Positions 4,113-64,000 of a DNA stretch of 64,000 nt are shown here, one piece after another. Under the pieces are notes generated by a model. That model was given only the letters and a program-made list of their open reading frames with translations. It did no database searches and was not told the origin of the DNA. Every line of letters starts with the position of its first letter. Within the stretch, counting starts at the first letter, position 1. A program made the translations under genes and the position numbers. This DNA comes from Paraescarpia echinospica (Eukaryota > Annelida > Polychaeta > Sabellida > Siboglinidae): the NCBI GenBank assembly GCA_020002185.1, contig CM034539.1, forward strand, positions 558,001 through 622,000, in the 5' to 3' direction.

Positions 4113-7100
4113 CTTAGAGTAGCCGCTTTTCTGGTAGACCTGTTGCATCATGGCGATCTCCTGGAGAGCCTTCTCAGTCCTGGAACACACAGTCACTGCA
4201 GTCATTACATCAAATGGTATCAGCTGCAGCTGGAATGAAGATTGTGGCAATCCCACTCATTATGATGTTGCATCATGGCGATCTCCTGGAGAGCCTTCTC
4301 AGTCCTGGAACACACAGTCACTGCTGTCATTACATCAAATGGTATCAGCTGCAGCTGGAATGAAGATTGTGGCAATCCCACTCATTATGATGTTGCATCG
4401 TAGCTCAAGTCGGGATTGGCGCAAGTCAATAGGTCACACTTGCCGTGTCTAGACATGTTGCTTGTGTAAACGCATGCCCAAGACAAGCTGCATCTGTCAC
4501 TGCATCAAAGACCAACTGGTGAAATTACTACTTGTTCGTTTTTTTATAGTGTAAACAACCATCTGTTTCTTTCATTCCCTTGGTAGCAACTACCCAGTAA
4601 GCCACTGTCAGAGCACGCTGGACTTCACCCACCTGTTTCCATCCACGGAGCCAGCGATGATGAAGCCAAGAGCTTCCACAGCATCGACTGACAGACACAT
4701 CTCCTTCGACTCACTCGAACCATCTACACACAACACACAAGTACCAGTTCTGAAATCATGTAAACGCAGTCTTCAGTTTCACTGACAAAACTGTGGCGCA
4801 TGTGTGTGATTCTTGCAGCGCAATATACACAATATTCGCAATACATGTACTTCAGGAAAGCGGCCCACAATCATAGTTCAACTGTTAGTCCCTAGACACC
4901 ATGTGTTGTGAATGTATCATAATCTTGTTTGGGGTACCGAGGTTATCAAGCAGAAATAATCACCAACACTTAACGCTACGTGGCATTAACGTGCCAAAAT
5001 GGAAGTATCCTGTAAGATCCCGTCATTGTGCAGTCAGAGATTATATTTTAATCCTGTTACTTGTAAATTTTATGATACACTCTGTAGCTGAGGTGCACCG
5101 TTTTCCAATGAAATCGCATCAGCTCGTGCACTGGCAGCTCACAACCATAGTTCAAAAATAAGTCACCAGGTGGCATACATGTTATGAGAGAACGTATGAC
5201 TAATGTCCACTGCACAACACTGTCTATGTCACTCAATTAATGTCAGTGTCCACTGTCTAGTTTACCATCAATGATTTTTAGGTCCAATTTGTTGAGTGAC
5301 ATAGACAGTGTTGTGCAGTGGACATTAGTCATACGTTCTCTCATAACATGTATGCCACCTGAACTATGGTTGTGAGCTGCCAGTGCACGAGCTGATGCGA
5401 TTTCATTGGAAAACGGTGCACCTCAGCTACAGAGTGTATCGTAAAAACTACAAGTGACAAGATTAAAATATAATCTCTGACTGCACAGTGACGGGATCTT
5501 ACAGGATACATTTTGGCACGTTAATGCCACGTAGCGTTAAGTGTTGGTGATTATTTCTGCTTGATAACCAATTAATGTCACAGTGTCCACTGTCTAGTTT
5601 ACCATCAATGATTTTTAGGTCCAATTTGTTGAGTGCTTCAACATGTTTGCCTAAATGTCTAGTGCCAAATTGTACAGTACTCTGAGATAGACAATAAGTG
5701 CTATAAACTATTAATATGACAAGTTTATCATTCCAAGAGCACCAACCTGGCTCTGCCAACAGGTCCAATATTTCCCTGAGATTGTTCAGCACAAATGTCA
5801 TGTGAGAATGCTCATCAAGACTCTGAAATAAAACATTTAAAACATTAACAAATTATACAAACAACTTTTCTTGAATATATCTGTTTAATGTGTCTTGCTA
5901 CTGTAGGTATACAGTTGAACTCACTATTACGGTCACCCTCTAGAGGGCAGAAGTGACCTGATTGGTGAAGTGACCTGATTGCTAAAATGATAGTGTTAGT
6001 GAGACTAATTACCTATACTTTGAAAGAAAACATGTGATACTATGTTGGGATGACCTTAATTGCGAGGTGGCTGTATTAATGGGGTGACCTTAATTGTGAG
6101 GTGGCTGTATTACCAGTGACCATAAAGTGAGGTTCAACTGTCTATGTATTGCTATTACACATACCGGTACATATCACTCTTCTAAATGACATTATATATT
6201 TTCCCTTGCTATAATACTAAATAAAAGTATATATAATTAATACTAAAAATATGCATAAACCACACACTGTACTAACAGTACAACCTCGTTATTAAGGTCA
6301 CTCTTTGGATTGGCAAAAACTGACCTGAATAGCAAGTTGACCATATAAGTGGGAATGATTTCATATACTTTACTTTAAATAAGTTTGATTGTCGTGGAGT
6401 TACCTTAATTGCAAGGTGGTTATATTACTAGGGTGATCATAAACAGAGGTTTGACTGTACATTAAATGACTGCATGGATGATTAAAATCTGGAATCTTGT
6501 GTTTCACCAGTGTTACTCATAACAACACATCTGGAATCTTGTGTTTCACCAGTGTAACTCATAACAACACATCTGGAATCTTGTGTTTCACCAGTGTTAC
6601 TCATAACAACACATCTGGAATCTTGTGTTTCACCAGTGTTACTCATAACAACACATCTGGAATCTTGTGTTTCACCAGTGTTACTCATAACAACACATCT
6701 GGAATCTTGTGTTTCACCAGTGTAACTCATAACAACACATCTGGAATCTTGTGTTTCACCAGTGTTACTCATAACAACACATCTGGAATCTTGTGTTTCA
6801 CCAGTGTTACTCATAACACAACTGGAATCTTGTGTTTCACCAGTGTTACTCATAACAACACATCTGGAATCTTGTGTTTCACCAGTGTTACTCATAACAA
6901 CACATCTGGAATCTTGTGTTTCACCAGTGTAACTCATAACAACACATCTGGAATCTTGTGTTTCACCAGTGTAACTCATAACAACACATCTGGAATCTTG
7001 TGTTTCACCAGTGTTACTCATAACAACACATCTGGAATCTTGTGTTTCACCAGTGTTACTCATAACAACACAACTGGAATATTGTGTTTCACCAGTGTTA

Positions 7101-10100
7101 CTCATAACAACACAACTGGAAAACTTAGAGAAAATTACGTGAGACGTTGGACAACATAAAACTTCAACAAGGCCCTGTGCCATGTAACACACCTAGTGTT
7201 TGTGTCCGATAGTCCTACCTTTCCCCTGGAGGATGAAGCCCTCGTGTCCAACTCTGGGGGTTGGGATGTCACTGGCCATCTGGTCACGTTGAGGACACAC
7301 ACACAACTACTACCAAAACATATCTCATTACTTGTTTTAGAGATTCACACTGCCCCGGACGAATTTCAAAAAAATCGCAATCTGTGAACACTACTCATAA
7401 TCAACTAAATTTGAATTCATTTATGTCCAAAAAATTAATATACAGAACAATAATTCACAGGCTGCTGTTTAAATATTTGCGAATAGAAACATTGGTGAGA
7501 TGTTATACTTTACAAAACATCATTAATAATTTATGTCTGCGAGTACATAAGAACAAAGGTAATATGGTACACAATAATAATTAATTTTGTAAATAATTAA
7601 TTTTGTAAATTTCTAGGATGTCCCAAAACAGTCACTGCAGTAGTGCCAGGTGAGTGTGAAGTGAAAACAAGGATACTCGACGTTGCCTGACACAAGGGAG
7701 GAACGCAGAGAGATCTTGTGGAAGTGTTGTAGGTAGAGGAAGAGGACAAACCGCAGCAGAGGCACCGACATCCGACTCTTGCACTGCTCTACAAAGTAAC
7801 ACTTGGTGTAAGACATCCGACTCTTGCACTGCTCTACAAAGTAACACTTGGTGTAAGACATCCGACTCTTACACAGGTTTACACAGTAACACTTGGTGTA
7901 AGACATCCGACTCTTGTACTGCTCTACAAAGTAACACTTGGTGTAAGACATCCGACTCTTACACAGGTCTACAAAGTAACACTTGGTGTAAGACATCCAA
8001 CTCTTGCACTGCTCTACAAGGTAACACTTGGTGTAAGACATCGGACCCTTGCACAGCTCTACAAAGTAACACTTGGTGTAAGACATCAGACTCTTGCACT
8101 GCTCTACAAGGTAACACTTGGTGTAAAACATTGAAATCTTGCACTGCTCTACAAGGTAACACTTGGTGTAAGATATCGGACTCTTGCACAACTCTACAAA
8201 GTAACACTTGGTGTAAGACATCCGACTCTTGCACTGTTCTACAAGGTAACATTTGGTGTAAGACATCTGACTCTTGCACTGCTCTACAAGGTAACACTTG
8301 GTGTAAGACATCCGACTCTTACACAGGTTTACACAGTAACACTTGGTGTAAGACATCCGACTCTTGTACTGCTCTACAAAGTAACACTTGGTGTAAGACA
8401 TCGGACTCTTGCACTGCTCTACAAGGTAACACTTGGTGTAAGACATCGGACTCTTGCACTGCTCTACAAGGTAACACTTGGTGTAAGACATCGGACTCTT
8501 GCACAGCTCTACAAAGTAACACTTGGTGTAAGACATGTTTACATTAGTGAAAATTCATCATGTTGGAAGAATTATTTAATTATTATAAAGAAAATTTGAT
8601 TTGAGTTGTACGTTTACATCAACAGTCACTGACGTGCCACACTAGTACTGCCACCTAGCGAGCAAATATTTCCTATATTTAAATATAAACTTATCGTACA
8701 ATTGTGAAAATGTTCACCAGGTTGGAAAAATAATTAAATATAGAAATGTTCTTTTTTCACAACTAGAAAATTTGACTCACATCGACCTTTCGACCGCCTG
8801 CTTGCCACACCATCTGGCGAGCAGAGGAAGAACAGTTCATGATGAAGGTCACCGAAGGTGGTCGAAACGTTGATGTGAGTCAAATTTTCTACTTGTAAAA
8901 TAAGAACATTTCTGTATTTGATCATACAATCAATCATTGATCGGTAAAGCCAAATTGATGTTCGATTACGAAAATAAAATCTATCCCTAGCAGTAATATG
9001 AATTGTTGCAGTGCGCACCTAATTCCTGCTGCGAGGAGCACTGGGCAAACATGTCATCACGATCCAGTCGCTCTTCTGGCTCTGTCACAACCAGCATGTC
9101 AAACGTCACAAAGTACCTGCAAGTCAACACGTCACCGGTCAACAGCTGGTGACACTTGATTTAGTGAACTACCGCCCAGTGATGTGAGCATATAACATAA
9201 TTAATTTTATTATATAATTTTTATGTCAATATTCTACTAGTTTTACTATGCATTTTATCTATGACATAACAAGTAATGTTTCTATTACAACGTATGATTC
9301 TTAACACATTTGTTTGTGTCTCTGTAAAGCGCTGTGAGCTACATTGGATGTAGCACTATATAAAATAAATCTTATCCTTATGTGCCACCCCGGGGCATGA
9401 AGAGGATAAGATTCAACAATTCACCAATTAATTTGTGTCCCTGTTTTATCATAATAATAAAAGAACTTTTTTGCGCCTCACAAACCAAATTCAGAGGTGC
9501 AACAAGAGAAAGGGTTGGTTCATCTCAAAATCAACAAGCCATATAAAAGTTGTCAACACATAAATGGATGTGCTAGATTGCTAAGATTAAAATGCTTACT
9601 TACTCGGGCAGTTACAAATGTACTGTTTTACTATTGTTTGAGTCTGTGTTACATGATGACTGTAGCAATTTGCTATATATTGACACATAGACTGAGACAA
9701 GAACACTTGCACATGTGGATTTGACAAACTGCATTAACTAACAGTACCAACCCTTCACACCTAAAGTCATTTTATGAAACGCTCTCTGAATCCTTGCAGA
9801 GTCTGAACAAAATCACCATCACATGGGTGCTTCTAGTTTTTGTAATTAACTTTGTTGTACTTGGTTTCCTAATATCGCAAGTTGTGCTTATGTTAAAGAT
9901 AATTGAATTCCACACAAGACAATGTTAAATGTATAAACCAAGTTTGTAATTAAACATGCGAAATGCAATACCCTGTGCCTGGGTGTGTTTGCAAAGAATG
10001 CAATGCATATCTACAAACTCCTTGTTAGTTTATATTTTAAAACAGCACCCATTCAAAAACTTCCAATACAAAGCCATATAAAAAATACCCTTTGCACAGT

Positions 10101-15151: not shown

Positions 15152-15425
15152 TCTTCTCTCACTTCCACTGCCTAGTATTCTCAGGCAAGACCCATAAATG
15201 GCATTTCTTCATCTCTAGTCACTGTAAAAAGAAAATACATGCATACATCAAATTAAAAATAGGATCAATTTACCTATGAATGAGCAAAGTTTTTGTGAGT
15301 TTTGGGGCAATAATGTAATATTTTGTTGTTCAATTTTTTCATGGTTAAACACTAATTGTATTGATAATATAATAAAATGTAAATGTGTTGGTGTGAAAAT
15401 TGTGCAAAAATATGTGCTTACTAAA

Positions 15426-16425
15426 NNNNNNNNNNNNNNNNNNNNNNNNNNNNNNNNNNNNNNNNNNNNNNNNNNNNNNNNNNNNNNNNNNNNNNNNNNN
15501 NNNNNNNNNNNNNNNNNNNNNNNNNNNNNNNNNNNNNNNNNNNNNNNNNNNNNNNNNNNNNNNNNNNNNNNNNNNNNNNNNNNNNNNNNNNNNNNNNNNN
15601 NNNNNNNNNNNNNNNNNNNNNNNNNNNNNNNNNNNNNNNNNNNNNNNNNNNNNNNNNNNNNNNNNNNNNNNNNNNNNNNNNNNNNNNNNNNNNNNNNNNN
15701 NNNNNNNNNNNNNNNNNNNNNNNNNNNNNNNNNNNNNNNNNNNNNNNNNNNNNNNNNNNNNNNNNNNNNNNNNNNNNNNNNNNNNNNNNNNNNNNNNNNN
15801 NNNNNNNNNNNNNNNNNNNNNNNNNNNNNNNNNNNNNNNNNNNNNNNNNNNNNNNNNNNNNNNNNNNNNNNNNNNNNNNNNNNNNNNNNNNNNNNNNNNN
15901 NNNNNNNNNNNNNNNNNNNNNNNNNNNNNNNNNNNNNNNNNNNNNNNNNNNNNNNNNNNNNNNNNNNNNNNNNNNNNNNNNNNNNNNNNNNNNNNNNNNN
16001 NNNNNNNNNNNNNNNNNNNNNNNNNNNNNNNNNNNNNNNNNNNNNNNNNNNNNNNNNNNNNNNNNNNNNNNNNNNNNNNNNNNNNNNNNNNNNNNNNNNN
16101 NNNNNNNNNNNNNNNNNNNNNNNNNNNNNNNNNNNNNNNNNNNNNNNNNNNNNNNNNNNNNNNNNNNNNNNNNNNNNNNNNNNNNNNNNNNNNNNNNNNN
16201 NNNNNNNNNNNNNNNNNNNNNNNNNNNNNNNNNNNNNNNNNNNNNNNNNNNNNNNNNNNNNNNNNNNNNNNNNNNNNNNNNNNNNNNNNNNNNNNNNNNN
16301 NNNNNNNNNNNNNNNNNNNNNNNNNNNNNNNNNNNNNNNNNNNNNNNNNNNNNNNNNNNNNNNNNNNNNNNNNNNNNNNNNNNNNNNNNNNNNNNNNNNN
16401 NNNNNNNNNNNNNNNNNNNNNNNNN
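15426..16425. other. Assembly gap of exactly 1000 N
   Basis: The run is exactly 1000 N, a placeholder length rather than a measured gap. The left contig stops in unique TBCCD1 upstream sequence that continues in the right copy at 34374. The right contig starts inside a satellite array. Confidence 0.99.
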
Positions 16426-18660
16426 CACACAATGTCACACAACCACGTCTAGTCTATGTGTGTCTACCTTTCATCATAGCTGAACAACAGTTGGTATCAT
16501 TCAGTGGGTATCACACAATATCACACAACCACGTCTAGTCTATGTGTGTCTACCTTTCATCATAGCTGAACAACAGATGGTATCATTCAGTGGGTATCAC
16601 ACAATATCACACAACCACGTCTAGTCTATGTGGGTCTACCCTTCATCATAGCTGAACAACAGTTGGTATCATTCAATGGGTATCACACAATATCACACAA
16701 CCACGTCTAGTCTATGTGTGTCTACCTTTCATCATAGCTGAACAGCAGTTGAGTATCATCATTCAATGGGTATCACACAATATCACAGCCCGCGTCCTAG
16801 TCTATGTGTGTCTACATATATGGCTGAACAACAGTTGGTATCATTCAGTGGGTATCACACAATGTCACACAACCACGTCTAGTCTATGTGTGTCTACCTT
16901 TCATCATAGCTGAACAACAGTTGGTATCATTCAGTGGGTATCACACAATGTCACACAACCACGTCTAGTCTATGTGTGTCTACCTTTCATCATAGCTGAA
17001 CAACAGTTGGTATCATTCAATGGGTATCACACAATATCACACAACCATGTCTAGTCTATGTGTGTCTACCTTTCATCATAGCTGAACAACAGTAGGTATC
17101 ATTCAGTGGGTATCACACAATATCACACAACCATGTCTAGTCTATGTGTGTCTACCTTTCATCATAGCTGAACAACAGTTGGTATCATTCAGTGGGTATC
17201 ACACAATGTCACACAACCACGTCTAGTCTATGTGTGTCTACCTTTCATCATAGCTGAACAACAGTTGGTATCATTCAATGGGTATCACACAATGTCACAC
17301 AACCACGTCTAGTCTATGTGTGTCTACCTTTCATCATAGCTGAACAACAGTTGGTATCATTCAATGGGTATCACACAACCATGTCTAGTCTATGTGGGTC
17401 TACCTTTCATCATAGCTGAACAACAGTTGGTATCATTCAGTGGGTATCACACAATATCACACAACCACGTCTAATCTATGTATGTCTACCTTTCATCATA
17501 GCTGAACAACAGTTGGTATCATTCAGTGGGTATCACACAATATCACACAACCATGTCTAGTCTATGTGTGTCTACCTTTCATCATAGCTGAACAACAGTT
17601 GGTATCATTCAGTGGGTATCACACAACCACGTCTAGTCTATGTGGGTCTACCTTTCATCATAGCTGAACAACAGTAGGTATCATTCAATGGGTATCACAC
17701 AATATCACACAACCATGTCTAATCTATGTGTGTCTACCTTTCATCATAGCTGAACAACAGTTGGTATCATTCAATGGGTATCACACAATATCACACAACC
17801 ATGTCTAGTCTATGTGTGTCTACCTTTCATCATAGCTGAACAACAGTTGGTATCATTCAGTGGGTATCACACAATATCACACAACCACGTCTAGTCTATG
17901 TGTGTCTACCTTTCATCATAGCTGAACAACAGTTGGTATCATTCAGTGGGTATCACACAACCATGTCTAGTCTATGTGTGTCTACCTTTCATCATAGCTG
18001 AACAACAGTAGGTATCATTCAATGGGTATCACACAATATCACACAACCATGTCTAGTCTATGTGTGTCTACCTTTCATCATAGCTGAACAACAGTTGGTA
18101 TCATTCAGTGGGTATCACACAATATCACACAACCATGTCTAGTCTAAGTGGGTCTACCTTTCATCATAGCTGAACAACAGTTGGTATCATTCAGTGGGTA
18201 TCACATAATGTCACACAACCATGTCTAGTCTATGTGGGTCTACCTTTCATCATAGCTGAACAACAGTTGGTATCATTCAGTGGGTATCACACAATATCAC
18301 ACAACCATGTCTAGTCTATGTGTGTCTACCTTTCATCATAGCTGAACAACAGTTGGTATCATTCAATGGGTATCACACAATATCACACAACCATGTCTAG
18401 TCTATGTGTGTCTACCTTTCATCATAGCTGAACAACAGTTGGTATCATTCAGTGGGTATCACACAACCACGTCTAGTCTATGTGGGTCTACCTTTCATCA
18501 TAGCTGAACAACAGTTGGTATCATTCAATGGGTATCACACAATGTCACACAACCACGTCTAGTCTATGTGTGTCTACCTTTCATCATAGCTGAACAACAG
18601 TTGGTATCATTCAATGGGTATCACACAATATCACACAACCACGTCTAGTCTATGTGTGTC
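16426..18660 (+). repeat. 86-bp satellite array, about 26 units
   Basis: The unit includes AACCACGTCTAGTCTATGTG and GAACAACAGTTGGTATCATT. Variants switch CACG/CATG and CAGTG/CAATG, and a few units are shortened by loss of the TATCACACAA stretch. The left copy carries only one unit (about 950-1033). The array touches the gap, so its true length is unknown. Confidence 0.95.
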
Positions 18661-22014: not shown

Positions 22015-34102
<12,088 letters not shown>

Positions 34103-45300: not shown

Positions 45301-48300
45301 TTTCGGAGCTCGGACTAGTCCAGTTTTAGAAGAGCAGTCCCGTCGGACTAGCTGTAATGACGTGAAAGAATGTATACTGTGTGTGTGAAAGTGAAGTGGT
45401 GTGATGAAAAAGCAAAACAATAAGATAACATTTTGTCACTCTGCTAAATTTTGCGTCTGACCATCTCATCCGGTACCGGGATTACGGGACTTGAAAATGG
45501 CCGCTGTTTACATCAGTAAGTGGTGCCTCCTGGCGACCATGAGTGTGGAACCACATGATCAAAATACTCAGTTTGCAGACAGCATCGCGTTCTATCATAT
45601 TATTGTTCGACCATGTCGCAGGGGCGAATCGGTGATTATTTTAGCAAGCTAACAAACTCCAACAAAGACACTAGAACACATGTCAGCACATATAAGGGGA
45701 AATCTAGCACAAAGTTGAGGCTCAAATCGTCTAAGACTAAAGCGAATGACGCAACATCAGCAACCGACATTGTCATCGCCGCCGCCGGTCATTCTACATC
45801 GAAATCATCCGACATTGCCGGCCCTTCTAACTCGACACCTTCCGACATTGGTATCATTGCTGGTCCTTCTGCATCGACATCGTTCGACACTGGAATCATC
45901 ACCGGTCCTTCAACATCGACATCGTCCGACATTGCCGGTCCATCGACATCAACCGACATTGGAGTCATTGCTGGTCCTTCTACACCCACATCGTCCGACA
46001 CTGTGGCTGCCTGTCCATCTACTGTTATCGTCTTGTCCAGTAGTGACTCTACCCATGAACGACATGAACAGATCCAAACTGCACGCATCTCATCTGATGA
46101 CTTTGCACATGTACTGTCGCGGCATCACCTTGTTGCCAATGATGGTCCTGATCATGTGACCAGTCATTCTAACACCACCTGCGTGCCCCAAGCACCAGAA
46201 AACAAAAGTCAGAAGAAGACAATTCGAAACAGAGGTACGAGGGAGTGATGCGAAAGCGGAGGTTTTTGCAATCGTGGACAGAAGAGTTTCCGTGGCTGTA
46301 CAAAGACGAACAGGCAGATAAGATGTTCTGCGGGTGGTGTTTAAGCAAAGGAACTCCACACCCACTTGCTGACAGGAAAAGTCCTTGGGTTCGGGCGGTG
46401 AAGGGAAGTACAAAAAGGACGGGTTGATGACGCATGACCGAAGCCAGGCTGACAAACGAATAGAGGCAGCCCGTAAGACACAAACAGGCCCAATGGATAC
46501 AGTCATCACAAAGATAACCAATGAAAAGACCAATGTCATAAAGCACCATTTCAACACAGCCTACCACGTTGCTAGATATAAATTGCCATTCCGTCATTAC
46601 CAGCCTTTATGTGAGCTGCAAGAGAAGAATGGTGTGTGCATGGGTGGCTGCTATGAAAATGACAAGGCATGCAAGATATTCATAGACAATATCAGTGAAA
46701 CAGAGAGAGACAGGGTCAGAGAGGAGGTGGGAAAGGCAAAGTGGGTATCTGTAATGGCTGATGGAAGTACTGACCACAGCATCACAGAACAAGAAAATGT
46801 TTACGTGAGATACATAAATGAAGATGGTATTCTGAAGACCGAACTTGCAGACATTGTCCCTGTGAAGTCAGCAGATGCCACTGGCGTATTCGATGCCATA
46901 AAGAAGGGCCTGGACAACATTGGTGTGACACTGGGGAAATGTGTGTGCACAAACATGGATGGGGCATCTGTCAATCAGGGCAAAAACAGTGGAGTGGCCA
47001 GGAAGATTGCTAAAGTCATTCCGCACAGTGTTGTTAACATCTGGTGTATTGCACACAAGCTGGAGTTGGCCAGGCTTGATGCTATCAAGGTGTCGAGCAA
47101 TGTCGTAGCTCTTGTAGAAGAGTGCGTTGATTTTGTGTACAGGTTCTACTATCGTTCCTCAAAAAGATGCAGAGACCTCAAGCAAATCGGCGACATCATT
47201 GAGGAAGATGTTGCCTACTTCAGTGCGCCGAAGGGCACTCGCTGGATGGCGAGCAGACAACGCGCCTACTCAGCACTCAGACAGAACTTGGCAGCAATCT
47301 GTCGTCACATGGAAGATGCTGCGACTGGCAAAGGAGAAGAAGTGCAGGGGGTACCTCAAGATAACTGAGGAGTTTGAATTTCAAACAGGCCTTGCCCTTC
47401 ATAATTGATGTGCTGAATGTCCTTGCGGATATCAGCTGTGCCTTCCAGAAGGATGACCTGCTTATCACCGACATTGCTGTGAAGCTGGGAGCCGGATGCC
47501 TGAAATTAAAGGCACTTTGACAGTTGAATGGCAAGGTGTTTGCAGAGTACACTGCCTCGGAGGAGACCTCACCTAATGAACTCCAAACGGCGGGCCTGTG
47601 CAACTTTGTTGATAAGGTTGTTGCCTTCGTTGAGACGAGATTTCAGTTTCTGAAACAGTCACCCTTCTCCAACTTCCAGGTGTTTGATTATCGCGACCAT
47701 TCCACCACAGGTGAAGAGGATTTTGCTAGCTTTGGTAATGCTGATATCGTTACTCTCTGTCAGCATTTCGAGGGCATTCTTGGAAGAGACGCAGATGACA
47801 TCATTGGACAGTGGCCAGAACTGAAGATGTTGTTGTCAAGAAAGCGAAGGCGCTGCCCAACTGAAACGTACACCAGCCTGATGGCTGACACACCAAAGGA
47901 GTTGCAGACATAATGTTGTTGGTGCGACTGGTGTTCACCATGTCGCCATCAACAGCAGCATGTGAACGTGGCTTCAGTGCTATGAACACAATCAAGAACA
48001 TTCGTAGAATGCAAATGTCAGGTGAAACACTTTCCACCTTGATGCGCATCAGTGCTATGTCACAAACCCTGAAGGAATTTGACCCAACCCCAGCTGTCAA
48101 GAAGTGGCTCAACAGCACAAAGAACCTTTGATTGTTGGCTCGGCAATGACCTTGACATGATTCGTTAATGAAGAATGAACATTCAGTCACAACTAACATT
48201 CTACATAACCAGTGGATGGACATTTAATTAAAGACGAACATCAAAGTAGAAAGCGTGTCGTCAGACATTTGCACTGTTCATATTTTCTTAATTTAAACAC

Positions 48301-57300: not shown

Positions 57301-57515
57301 CAGGCATTGCTGATGAGAAAAAGAAGCTGTCAGCTGACGTGTATGTGAAAACCATGCAGAAAATCCTTGAGAAGGGCAATGACTTTGTTGTTTCTGAGCT
57401 GACGCGAGTAAATAAACTCGGCAAAGGCAAAGTTAGTGAAAAGAAGAAGGCTCAGCTCAAAAATCGATCCAATATCCTGATGTCTTTCAAGCACCTCTTA
57501 AAAGATGAACTTTAA
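39251..57515 (+). CDS. ERP29: ERP29 (endoplasmic reticulum protein 29), complete, four exons
   Basis: The exons are 39251-39367, 53724-53862, 55098-55265 and 57184-57515 (TAA). All junctions are AG/GT and phases match (0, 1, 1), giving 251 residues against 261 in human. Residues 1-23 form a signal peptide. The thioredoxin-fold domain follows: VLVKFDQMYPYGEEHDEF matches human VLVKFDTQYPYGEKQDEF, with PVYKLF and DPVDYTG after it. It lacks a CXXC motif, as ERp29 proteins do, so it is a redox-inactive chaperone. Exon 4 encodes the all-helical D domain, with the conserved cysteine in GLPGCMEEFD, and ends in KDEL, an ER retrieval signal (human KEEL). ERp29 assists secretory-protein folding and export. 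Intron 1 is 14.4 kb and full of transposons. An ERSE-II motif suggests ER-stress induction. Confidence 0.97.
39812..40977. mobile_element. TIR element in ERP29 intron 1, probably hAT-like and non-autonomous
   Basis: The ends TAGGGACAGTAATTTT and, in reverse complement at the right, TAGGGACACTGATTTTCC are inverted repeats. Sub-terminal sequence is made of TTCCGTTTCAGAAAA-like short repeats at both ends. There is no transposase, and no clean target duplication is seen. Confidence 0.55.
41040..44640 (+). mobile_element. Dead CR1/L2-like non-LTR retrotransposon (LINE)
   Basis: In order: an APE endonuclease start (CVCLDAKSIVNKRSDLD, DPDIIGFTESW), cut short near 41420; a linker; RT blocks (VVGIPRKLL, NYRPVSLT, VVYLDFQKAFYKVPHQRL around 42481-42535); a TTAA-element insertion at 42615-43661; then PQGSVL, NDLDDD and the catalytic FADDTK at 43801-43818; and a C-terminal tail (ILGQIRRNITYKEKQL, IQAWRPYRKKDID). 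Stop codons and frameshifts recur throughout (for example at 42301 and 43888). The 3' end contains a short direct repeat ATCTTGTTAA x2. Same strand as ERP29. Confidence 0.88.
42615..43661. mobile_element. TTAA-flanked piggyBac-like non-autonomous element inside the LINE
   Basis: TTAA at 42615-42618 and 43658-43661 flanks ends CCCATTAGACCCCAGC and, in reverse complement, CCCATTAGACCCAGCG. It interrupts the RT frame exactly between TDKRH and the continuation GEISNWKPVLSG. TTAA duplications with CCC-starting TIRs are the hallmark of piggyBac. There is no transposase ORF. Its inside matches the repeat at 14276-14870 in inverse orientation. Confidence 0.85.
45613..48131 (+). pseudogene. hAT transposase (ZNF862-like lineage), broken by frameshifts
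   Basis: Five ORF pieces in shifting frames make one ancestral product. 45613-46248 has a serine/threonine-rich N-terminus with repeated GPSTSTSSDI motifs. 46245-46427 is a zinc-finger-like piece (LQSWTEEFPWLYK, MFCGWC). 46385-47368 is the RNase H-like core (VSVMADGSTDHS, TNMDGASVNQG, WCIAHKLELA, GTRWMASR). 47524-47913 is the insertion region. 47913-48131 is the hAT C-terminal dimerisation domain (STAACERGFSAMNTIKN). At least four frame changes separate them, so it is not functional as read. Confidence 0.88.
48340..48610 (+). repeat. ~40-bp minisatellite at the 3' end of the inner hAT
   Basis: About six units of CATGGACAAGCATTGCTAAC plus TAGTTTATGCACATTTAAT, one with an internal AAATTT insertion. 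Confidence 0.88.
49329..49595 (+). pseudogene. hAT dimerisation-domain remnant of the outer element
   Basis: It encodes CTDCHNDPLQFWKDQ ... PASSAPVERVFSIAKW, the signature of hAT transposase C-termini (FWK followed by S(S/T)AP.ERVFS). The rest of that transposase is absent. Confidence 0.85.
49639..49871. repeat. Palindrome with arms of about 115 bp
   Basis: TTGATGAACTAAAG...TGATCAACTGCCA is mirrored as TGGCAGTTGATCA...CTTTAGTTCATCAA around a centre near 49756 (ATTAATTAATCATTT). It lies inside the outer hAT just before its right end. Confidence 0.9.
50324..52575. mobile_element. Putative TIR element carrying a minisatellite, nested in the hAT
   Basis: The left end has GTTCACATCTAATGCGGATC. 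The right side has GTTCACATTGGCTAATCCGC, TTAATGCGGATCAAGAGTGT and CCGCATCCTAATGCAGATTA, giving inverted copies of the TAATGCGGAT core at both ends. Exact limits and target duplication are not resolved. Confidence 0.5.
50590..52405 (+). repeat. ~92-bp minisatellite array, 19-20 units
   Basis: The unit contains AGCAAGGTTACAGAGATTCC, GAAGCTTGTTACAGCAAAGG and AACCCTCTGTCATGC. Some units carry an extra ~20 bases (AAGGCAGTTCGGCAAAGG). Several long frames stay open across it; none looks like a protein. Confidence 0.95.
53724..53862 (+). CDS. ERP29: ERP29 exon 2
   Basis: Acceptor TTTCTAG at 53717-53723, donor GTAAGG at 53863. It carries the beta-strand IVPKFKAVLVKFD and the YPYGEEHDEF surface loop, part of the dimer or peptide-binding region in known ERp29 structures. 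It ends after the first base of an Asp codon. Confidence 0.97.
55098..55265 (+). CDS. ERP29: ERP29 exon 3
   Basis: Acceptor TTCAACAG, donor GTAATA at 55266. It completes the split Asp codon and encodes the rest of the thioredoxin-like domain (DDFPVYKLFIQG, DYTGNKKSSDEIIRF). Confidence 0.97.
55697..55846 (+). pseudogene. LINE reverse-transcriptase C-terminal fragment in ERP29 intron 3
   Basis: The frame reads KRSRGRPARQWRDELDKYW, then WQRIAQDRQIWKR and a stop at 55844-55846. The RGRP..RW.D(E)(L/I)...W...A.DR..W pattern is the usual C-terminus of RTE/Jockey-type LINE ORF2 proteins. Only about 50 codons remain. Confidence 0.78.
57184..57515 (+). CDS. ERP29: ERP29 exon 4: helical D domain and KDEL
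   Basis: Acceptor TTCATAG at 57177-57183. It encodes the D domain (EEFDELAKSFFKA, YVKTMQKILEKGNDFV, ELTRVNKL) and the terminal HLLKDEL followed by TAA at 57513-57515. Confidence 0.97.
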
Positions 57516-61239: not shown

Positions 61240-61460
61240 TCATTGTTTCACCGACAATCGCTGATTGTCATTAAAGTCTTTGTTGTAGTCGATAGCCCTC
61301 TTCTGTACGGCGTGTTTGAATATGTCGACGAGGACATCGTCCATGTCGTGCTGTTGAATGGCGGCGAAGATTTTGCGCAGCGACGTGTCGAGAGCAACCT
61401 CGCCCGTGTAGAAGGGAATGTCCAAAGTTCGACGTATGAAGCGGTACATCTGCCTGGTTC
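61240..61460 (-). CDS. Lyase last exon
   Basis: It begins after the acceptor ACTGTTTCAG (AG at 61461-61462) and encodes GTRQMYRFIRRTLDIPFYTGE through to IFKHAVQKRAID and a polar tail ending in TGA. The region corresponds to the C-terminal helical extension found in eukaryotic PALs and absent from bacterial HAL and TAL enzymes. Confidence 0.9.
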
Positions 61461-63870
61461 CTGAAACAGTATCCACCGTATCAACTGCCAATAAAGGTCT
61501 CAGCAGCTGTAGTTATATCTGAATATGAAAAACATAGTTAACAAATTTAGATAACATAAAATTGCAGACAAATGTTGTGCCCGGATAATTGTATCGTGTC
61601 GCTACATACGCCTGTCTGTTAGGCTATTAATGTAATGAGAAATATATCAATGACAGTCAGTCACATGATATATAATTTATATATATATAAATATATATCA
61701 CAAATCGTTGCCTTAAACTGCAGTCATTCCAAGCACTAAACATACAGTAATCGGCAGTAGGTCTAAAGACACATAAATGTTAAACCAACTACATAAAGGC
61801 CTTGAACAAGTAAATACATATAAAGGCGTGAAAAGGCGTAACAAATGTAAAGCATGAAACTGGGAAACAAACTTAAAAGCTTTTTATAAATAAAAACATG
61901 CTTGGAAAGAGCAGGCGGAATATGTGTATAAGGCCCACGACGATGAAAGACATATTAAAATGTTGAATGGTAACACAGATAGATAGATAGATAGGCCGAT
62001 AATACACATATAATTTACAGGAAAACTTAAACAGATATGAAGGCCTGGAGCGGTGTCACAGACACGTTTCAGCCTTACTACATAGATGGGACATGTCTAC
62101 AGCCGCCATACGACACCATAGTATGCCACACGTCCAAGCACAATACGCTTACCTTGACCGAGGTCTTGGTAGACGTCGGAGTAGCAGTCATTTGTCCTGA
62201 CCCTCGTCGTCAGAGCCTCCATGCGACCCACGACATCGGCAACGAACACGTCGCGTCCTGCTCCAGTGACGCCGAGATCGTCAAACAGTTCAGCAGCAGC
62301 CGCTCTTGGCTGCAGCGCCAACTTGTACCACGGCGTGACGAGACGACGGGAGAGGGCCGGGTCGACGCTGTAGAGAGTCAGGAGGTCGTCGAGCTCACCG
62401 TTCACCCGTCGCTGCAGCCAGCGCAGGTCGACGGCCTGCACCTCGCAGCACAGGATGTTGGCGAGCATCATCTGGAGCACTTCCATCGCCTCCTGTGTTT
62501 TCCTCGCCGAGAGCAGCCCGAGTGAATTGACGCTCTGATTGTGCATCTCTGCGGCGACGACGTGGTTGGTGACGGGGTTCGTGAGCACGTCGAGCTCCGC
62601 CATGTACGAAGCCATCGCAGTGTCGGCGCCCTTGAAGCCGAAGTCGACGTTGTAGTCGCCGCCGGCGATGTTCGGTGGCAGACCGTTGCTCAGTGTCACG
62701 TTGACGATCTCCTCCATCTGGCTGAAGATGAGTTTGCCGCACAGCTGCAGGGCCTGGCGCGCCTGGTCCATCGCCACGGTACTGGACACACCCTGGAAGT
62801 TAGCGCAGTGAATGATGGCGTCGTTCGTATGGTCGATCAGCGGATTGTCGTTGGCGCTGTTTATCTCCGTCTCGACGCGTCTCGTCGACTCCTGGATGGT
62901 CTCGACGACAGGAGCGAGCCACTGCGGCGCCGAGCGCAGACAGTAGCGGTCCTGCTTCAGGCGGCTAGCCTCGTCTTTCTGATCTAGCGACATTCCCTGT
63001 ACGGCGAGCCGGGAGTCGTCCAGTAATGTCGTCAGGTTACTCGCCACTTCCTGTAGGCCGGCGTGCGGCATACAGCGGCCAATGGTCGGATGGAAGCTCT
63101 CGACTCGGCCTTCTAGTGACTCCACGGCCAACGCCGTCGCCACCTGCGTCAACAGAATGGCGACATTGGCGTCGAAGAGAACGCACGCTCCCAGCGACGA
63201 CGCGAATGACGCCGCGTTGATCACCGCCAGTGCCTCCTTGGCCTGGAACTGGACCGGACGTAGCCGGGCCCGCTCCAACGCGGCAAGGGCTGTCGTCTCT
63301 ACACCGTCCACAGTAACCCGGGCATCCTGTCTTCCCATCATGCACGCCGCGATGTATGACGTCGGCATCAAGTCTCCGCTGGCGCTCACTGAACCTCGCT
63401 TTGGAACAACAGGGATGATGTCTTCGTTGAGCATGCTGACGAGCAACTGGACGGTTGTGGGACGTATTCCCGAGAACCCCAGACTGAGACTATTGGCTCG
63501 AACGAGCATCACGGCGCGAACGAGTTCTGGAGGAAATGTCGGACCAAACCCCGCGTTCAAATGCCGGATGAGCGAGTTCTGTAGTTCTACCGTGTCGTCT
63601 GAGCGAACGTCGGCACTGCCTCCGTAGCCCGTGTTGACGCCGTAGATGACCATTCCTTCTCGGATCTTCCCGCTCAAATAATCGACATTTTCTTGCATCA
63701 CACCAACGGACTTGGTCTCGATGGCCACTTTGGTTGACTGTCGGTTGGCCACAGCGTAAATGGCGGCCAGGGTCAACCCTTGACCGTTTAGAACAACACA
63801 GTCTTCCGCCTGTTTGTATTCCTCCAGGGATGATATGGCAGACGCTGCGTGAGTCTTGGTATACGTCGTC
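61240..63870 (-). CDS. Aromatic amino-acid ammonia-lyase (PAL/TAL family), 3' two exons
   Basis: The exons are 63870-62153 and 61460-61240 (TGA at 61240-61242). The 692-base intron has GTAAGC...TTTCAG borders, and the split Gly codon joins DLGQ to GTRQMYRFIRR. This family deaminates Phe, Tyr or His non-oxidatively using an MIO cofactor formed from Ala-Ser-Gly, here at 63375-63383 (VSASGDL). Other hallmarks are YGVNTGYGGSAD (catalytic Tyr), VLNGQGLTLAAI, QDRYCLRSAPQ, EINSANDNPLID and NPVTNH..AEMHNQSVNSL. The His-Leu pair in SLIRHLNAG marks tyrosine selectivity (Phe-Leu in PAL, Ser-His in HAL). Wording such as YGV.TG.GGSAD and the C-terminal GTR.(L/M)YRF(I/V)R extension resembles fungal PAL. 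About 646 residues are visible; the N-terminus lies upstream of the acceptor at 63871-63872. The long exon is GC-rich, unlike its intron. Confidence 0.93.
61461..62152 (-). other. Lyase intron
   Basis: AT-rich, containing a TATATATAAATATATA tract near 61680 and a short GATA repeat (61978-61997). Its composition matches the surrounding genome rather than the GC-rich exon. Confidence 0.85.
62153..63870 (-). CDS. Lyase penultimate exon with MIO active site
   Basis: The acceptor TGCTCCTCAG precedes 63870 and the donor GTAAGC follows 62153. The open frame continues upstream of any in-frame ATG, so this is an internal exon, not a start. It carries the MIO triad, catalytic Tyr, selectivity His-Leu, and the Tyr/Arg of QDRYCLRSAPQ. 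The usual N-G-T after KE(G/A)LAL(V/I) reads N-A-A here. Confidence 0.93.
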
Positions 63871-64000
63871 CTGAGGAGCAGACGACAGACATAGGTTACA
63901 TTAGCGACACCTACCGACGTTCATAATTTCTCGTCAGGTGGCGAACACGTTTCGATTCTAGTCCGAGGACAACCTTTCATTAAGCAGGTTACACGTGTCG

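Follow-up and report, generated by a model that had tools for sequence, protein, structure and literature searches.

The DNA analysed here, to which we refer as the window, is a stretch of 64,000 nucleotides from the tubeworm Paraescarpia echinospica (C9:558001-622000), located on a contig of 63.9 Mb in a genome of 1,083,790,144 bases and 3111 contigs. Close to the end of the window, an open frame of 607 codons is found on the minus strand (62097-63920), in which PF00221 (Lyase_aromatic) is the sole Pfam domain, with 471.8 bits. It belongs to a gene of three exons on the same strand, whose spliced product is a protein of 681 amino acids. The large exon 2 (62153..63870) has 572 whole codons counted from 63869 and a split codon at each end, is bounded by an acceptor AG at 63871-63872 and a donor GT at 62151-62152, and encodes the core of a phenylalanine ammonia-lyase (PAL) together with most of the C-terminal part; this exon alone gives the PF00221 score above and 514.7 bits with TIGR01226. 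After an LGQG motif comes a GT...AG intron of 692 bases in phase 1 (61461..62152), and then exon 3 (61240..61460), which joins exon 2 in frame, encodes the C-terminal end, reading TRQMYRFIRRTLDIPF...LSVKQ*, and finishes with a TGA stop at 61240-61242. On the other side of exon 2, the window holds the 3' end (63871..64000, with a CTCAG acceptor) of an upstream intron of 1003 bases in total. Exon 1, of 107 bases, lies at C9:622874-622980, about 870 bases past the window end, and is followed by a GTGAGA donor; the codon that it shares with exon 2 is split two to one and joined in frame. The initial annotation had described a spliced gene at 61240..63870, of which the exons, the intron and the splicing stand, but the gene drawn there was incomplete, exon 1 being outside the window. 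This exon contributes MSLRVAAVTTCRQWRHLAAARCVCLSAGWMTSPSRR, reading MSLRV...MTSPSRR, to which the start of the Ridgeia protein P0001 is similar. The N-terminal leader is rich in arginine and free of acidic residues, and two Glu are present in that of Ridgeia; the arginine-rich leader could be a candidate mitochondrial signal.

The neighbouring gene is an animal ERP29, whose last exon matches Pfam ERp29 and ends at 57515, at the distance of 3.7 kb from the ammonia-lyase gene that had been given for it. The intron of 692 bases is indeed AT-rich, as had been noted, with 36% GC versus 60% in exon 2 (74% at third positions); the ERP29 exon has 42%, and the surroundings of 62153-63870 have about 38%. 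Several other features were recorded. An open frame of 418 amino acids upstream of the gene (L005:6768-8021, minus strand) contains an OTU protease domain, scored at 28.1 bits, and may belong to a mobile element. An open frame of 331 amino acids at 46373-47368 on the plus strand, with a weak match to DUF4371 below the cut-off (21.5 of 32.1 bits), is probably a transposase remnant. At about 6480-8600 and 23980-27600 there are two sets of open frames with tandem repeats; they resemble each other, flanks included, and lie some 17.5 kb apart, which suggests a large segmental duplication. The region 15425-16430 contains an assembly gap, formed by a run of 1000 N.

Curated family models were scanned with the spliced protein and three relatives. 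The protein reaches 532.6 bits with TIGR01226, the equivalog model of eukaryotic PAL, above the cut-off of 519.15, while exon 2 alone stays just below it; of the relatives, two pass, Lingula P0023 with 529.6 and Mytilus trossulus P0028 with 533.5, and Mya P0024, with 512.4, just misses. All other models are missed: histidine ammonia-lyase (HAL) with 300 bits against a cut-off of 539.15, the Taxus aminomutase model TIGR04473 with 405.7 against 1250, the tyrosine 2,3-aminomutase model TIGR03832 with 253 against 501, the beta-Phe mutase model TIGR04475 with 280.2 against 800, and both bacterial tyrosine ammonia-lyase (TAL) models, FlxA with 252.1 of 700 bits and BagA/FevW with 230.4 of 1000. The TIGR01226 match ends at position 514 of 680, and the stretch between the core and exon 3 is outside the coverage of the model. 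Exon 3 scores 17.6 bits against a profile built from 17 PALs of plants and fungi, whereas the best of 200 shuffles gave 3.0; judging from this comparison, it is homologous to the C-terminus of those enzymes, and the eukaryotic C-terminal extension postulated earlier is thus confirmed. Searched by sequence, the PDB gives Taxus aminomutase entries first, followed by plant PAL, Rhodosporidium PAL and Nostoc PAL, with TAL and HAL lower. An AlphaFold2 model of exon 2 built from 30 sequences (pLDDT 83.7, pTM 0.86) gave the same order with Foldseek, with a TM of 0.84 to 4BAA. By its sequence, the protein is a PAL/TAL-type enzyme encoded in an animal nuclear genome, with histidase excluded, and would most likely be a Tyr/Phe lyase.

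The residues of the active site, all read on the minus strand, agree with this assignment. The Ala-Ser-Gly triad, which by family chemistry we take to be MIO-forming, is at 63375..63383 (residues 163-165 of exon 2), and the Tyr of YGVNTGYGG, presumably catalytic, is residue 76 (63642..63644). Together with the triad, this Tyr and the Asn, Gln and Arg that we assume to be the other catalytic residues of the PAL family are present and invariant in an alignment of 30 sequences. So are the PAL-type Lys of FKG (residue 413, 62631..62633) and the PAL-type Glu of AEMHNQ (residue 441, 62547..62549), each of which is conserved in 85 of the 87 best relatives; taken as a pair, Lys-Glu occurs in 84 of them, with one Lys-gap, one Ile-Glu and one gap.

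The selectivity pair is far more variable. It reads His-Leu in the query (SLIRHLNAG, 63558..63563), as had been pointed out, and this is also the commonest state among the 87 relatives, with 41 cases, followed by LL (18), HV (6), FL (5), gap (5), LV (3) and SV (2), and by VL, HI, FM, AV, HS, TL and FF, seen once each. His occupies the first position in 49 of the 82 relatives having a residue there. Mapped on the tree, this position requires a minimum of 18 changes over 54 rows, and the siboglinid relatives P0001, P0006 and P0004 have Phe, Val and Leu, respectively; the first of them, from Ridgeia, is the nearest tree neighbour of the query and has Phe-Leu, and P0006, from Lamellibrachia, has Val-Leu. 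In the plant rows used for comparison, the pair is FL or CL, and in the fungal rows HV, HL, HT or LL; all of them have the Lys-Glu pair. The pocket of the query resembles that of the grass-type PTAL. The exchange His89Phe in a bacterial TAL is described as switching its use from Tyr to Phe, and maize PTAL has His123 at the matching place (PMC9002059); in bacterial PAL/TAL, the selectivity position is described as fast-evolving (PMC5651878). Since Phe, Val or Leu stands there in close relatives, Tyr specificity is a prediction, and a preference for Tyr is our best guess. Of the original proposal of a TAL-like enzyme, the PAL/TAL type therefore holds, but a Tyr preference does not follow from a pair that varies so widely and whose first residue is Phe in Ridgeia P0001.

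A protein search with E up to 1e-3 yielded 2205 matches, of which the best 120 were considered (7996-7999 candidates were scored per search). Among these 120, the best 87 form one block that scores above plant and fungal PAL. An organism name is attached to 24 of the 87: 10 are annelid (Ridgeia, Lamellibrachia, Capitella, Dimorphilus, Owenia, Helobdella), 3 are brachiopod (Lingula) and 11 are bivalve (Mya, Mytilus, Mercenaria, Dreissena, Ruditapes, Mactra, Pinctada). The closest named ones among the matches listed come from vestimentiferan tubeworms: Ridgeia piscesae, with 85% identity over 99% of the query and a second protein with 90% over 33%, and Lamellibrachia satsuma, with 87-88% identity. 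A profile search with 30 of the sequences placed no further animal ahead of plants and fungi in the best 120 of 2113 matches. Judging by the named animals in both searches, the gene is lophotrochozoan among the matches listed. Of the members of the clade already in databases (Ridgeia P0001, Lamellibrachia P0005 and P0006, Lingula P0023, Mytilus P0028, P0059 and P0075), several are labelled as PAL or aminomutase by the source.

The ends of these relatives also bear on the gene structure. At the (L/M)GxG motif, after which the query has its second intron, 51 of the 87 break at the motif or within about 45 residues after it, 22 read through and 14 are fragments without the motif; in this tally P0047, which reads through, was not counted among the breaks and P0001 and P0034 were assigned to the read-through group by eye. 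The tails of the broken proteins are mutually unrelated or absent, and the read-through ones continue into a homologous last exon. Broken proteins are seen among the annelid-side relatives (P0002-P0004, P0007-P0009) as well as in Mytilus (P0067, P0073). Seven relatives end exactly at the motif and might be cut for another reason, and some of the protein ends may be contig ends. The breaks are best read as one shared intron left in unspliced predictions, so that a shared intron position, which the initial annotation had proposed to look for in related animals, does appear to recur on the annelid and bivalve sides, as seen from protein ends.

Two trees were calculated. The first, of 74 rows, included 41 of the 87 animal-side relatives, 12 plant rows (4 of them assigned to plants by similarity) and 7 fungi, together with a rough HAL and 11 of the 15 bacterial loci that are HAL-like; for the second, of 67 rows, 13 rows with long branches or fragments were dropped and 6 added. 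Neither took in choanoflagellates or other holozoans by name. The animal proteins form one clade in both (42 rows, 100/99; 33 rows, 100/100), and plants, fungi and HAL-like rows form one clade each in the 74-row tree. The query, Ridgeia and Lamellibrachia form a group of 7 rows (100/100) inside an annelid set of 26 rows (99/99), the other large set joins bivalves, Lingula and Owenia (91/86 in the 74-row tree), and row P0086 is basal in the animal clade of the 74-row tree. Where orthologues in related animals had been asked for, the analysis gives clade members from annelids, bivalves and a brachiopod. A position within the HAL clade was not found, as the HAL-like rows lie across a branch of 100/100 that separates them from the PAL side in both trees (62 rows in the first, 56 in the second). 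Fungi are sister to the animals, with 99/89 in the 74-row tree and 95/86 in the 67-row tree, and the earlier view that fungal PAL is closest stands inasmuch as no other non-animal group comes closer in either tree, but this tie is insecure because the AU test rejects none of four alternatives: animal+plant (p 0.176), animal+plant+Omnitrophota (0.421), animal+Omnitrophota (0.142) and fungi+plant (0.123). With strong support on one side and AU p values of 0.12-0.42 on the other, the animal clade is secure in this sampling whereas its sister group is not.

Bacterial donors were also considered. Among 16 loci found in a contig scan, one is PAL-like, from Omnitrophota and with 46% identity, and the others have 28-32%; the Omnitrophota PAL groups with plant PAL (98/90 and 96/90), away from the animals, and was rejected as donor. 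Its MAG contig (JACQQV010000031.1; L012 1-7398, L028) carries one open frame of 6090 amino acids. In the 2466 that were read, a PLP-dependent lyase, an AMP-binding ligase, the PAL, a cupin-like stretch and a 2-hydroxyacid dehydrogenase are fused. The PAL domain is full, with the C-terminal extension and a Phe-Leu pair, and there is a metagenomic relative, P0145, with 53% identity.

A search of the genome with PF00221 recovered, besides the ammonia-lyase gene, three short exons on C1 near 22.28-22.31 Mb, and a profile of 12 bacterial HAL-like proteins gave further pieces, in order, across that region. Their translations have what we take to be animal HAL wording. These pieces indicate a separate, multi-exon HAL-like gene on C1 of the same genome. 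A host histidine ammonia-lyase is on record for Riftia (PMC6918071).

We think it quite probable that the gene is a lophotrochozoan PAL/TAL gene of the tubeworm, old, vertically inherited and coding for a Tyr/Phe lyase. The animal-only clade and the recurring intron point to an old lophotrochozoan gene and make a recent acquisition by the tubeworm unlikely; the gene, for which acquisition or ancient retention had been considered at first, is no lone acquisition but a member of a clade that annelids, bivalves and a brachiopod share. The composition of exon 2 does look foreign at first when set against the ERP29 exon. Recent transfer or assembly contamination is nevertheless very improbable in our judgement, and we consider it ruled out by the spliceosomal introns, the size of the contig, the animal gene next door, and the single clade with other annelids, Lingula and bivalves. 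Whether the whole clade stems from a fungal (or bacterial) PAL transferred long ago into an early lophotrochozoan, instead of one retained from the opisthokont ancestor, is a much closer matter, and we place the transfer a little short of evenly balanced. It would explain why all animals named among the matches listed are lophotrochozoan and why fungal PAL is sister in both trees, but all seven fungal rows form a separate clade beside the animals with none within it, the fungal tie is insecure by the AU test, and losses elsewhere would mimic the same pattern.

As to activity, the same gene and clade might comprise an enzyme that prefers phenylalanine or another aromatic, the His of the pair being indecisive here. 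This seems to us rather unlikely, though it deserves to be kept in mind: the siboglinid residues and the many changes at the first position favour it, as does the fact that PAL is the best curated model and the bacterial TAL models stay far under their cut-offs, while the predominance of His-Leu and the effect of the bacterial His-to-Phe exchange (PMC9002059) count against it. An aminomutase, which would shift the amino group to the beta carbon and had been named as an alternative, is improbable, since the three curated aminomutase scores fall far short. Taxus aminomutase structures or variants make up most of the top PDB matches in both sequence and fold, but this similarity is to be expected because the Taxus enzymes are PAL-derived plant proteins. 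Animals do carry HAL, but that the gene is an ordinary animal histidase has practically no chance, and we regard it as excluded by the HAL score, the separate HAL-like gene and both trees.

The old lophotrochozoan enzyme that we favour can be compared with several known systems. It shares with plant PAL (parsley PcPAL 1W27/6F6T; Sorghum 6AT7) the fold, the MIO triad, the pocket Lys and Glu and, in part, the C-terminal extension, but identity is about 33-34% in the fold alignment, the tubeworm protein has His instead of the plant Phe at the selectivity position and a shorter C-terminal part, and it falls in the animal clade. The grass bifunctional PTAL presumably has, like the tubeworm protein, a PAL-type pocket. 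The His-Leu pair is common to both (Zea His123; PMC9002059), but the lineages are independent and the tubeworm activity is predicted. Fungal PAL and PAL/TAL (Rhodosporidium 1T6J; ascomycete P0100, P0102, P0122) are the nearest non-animal clade, with His in some rows, although identity to 1T6J is 30% in the fold alignment and fungi keep to their own clade, insecurely placed by the AU test. Taxus phenylalanine aminomutase (4BAA, 3NZ4, 2YII) gives the top PDB match but differs in its curated score, and animal HAL shares the superfamily and MIO chemistry but is a separate multi-exon gene on the other side of the 100/100 branch.

Thus, we think of a nuclear gene of P. echinospica that encodes a eukaryote-type phenylalanine/tyrosine ammonia-lyase, predicted to be functional and presumably expressed, of a clade that would have been present in the common ancestor of annelids, brachiopods and bivalves and inherited vertically since. 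The protein would fold as PAL and make its MIO group from Ala-Ser-Gly, and it is predicted to convert L-tyrosine to p-coumarate and, to a lesser or equal extent, L-phenylalanine to cinnamate, as grass PTAL does. As to the role, we can only guess that the animal may dispose of aromatic amino acids in this way, setting ammonia free, or may use the acid as a phenolic precursor.

Plants, fungi and certain bacteria are said to have PAL, "but not animals" (PMC4102242), and another source likewise has it "but not in animals" (PMC6357058). Our literature search, in which subscription journals are thinly covered, found no study of an animal PAL/TAL among the matches listed, and the word "ammonia" is absent from the main text of a compendium of metazoan transfers (PMC13342648). 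The present gene is, on the evidence of its sequence, likely a functional and old lophotrochozoan gene for an enzyme of known type, one that animals are said not to have. A broader proposal, on which our opinion is evenly divided, is that lophotrochozoans have had their own entry enzyme into phenylpropanoids ever since their common ancestor, or for longer, repeatedly switching it between Tyr and Phe use through one pocket residue, and so can make p-coumarate and cinnamate themselves. The variation of His, Phe, Leu and Val among near-identical proteins makes such switching of specificity directly testable. If the animal clade holds, some animals would be able to produce hydroxycinnamates on their own, independently of plants, microbes or diet, and a third branch, next to plants and fungi, would have to be added to the origin of PAL in eukaryotes. 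For gutless tubeworms, bivalves and brachiopods, this raises the question of what use is made of the product.
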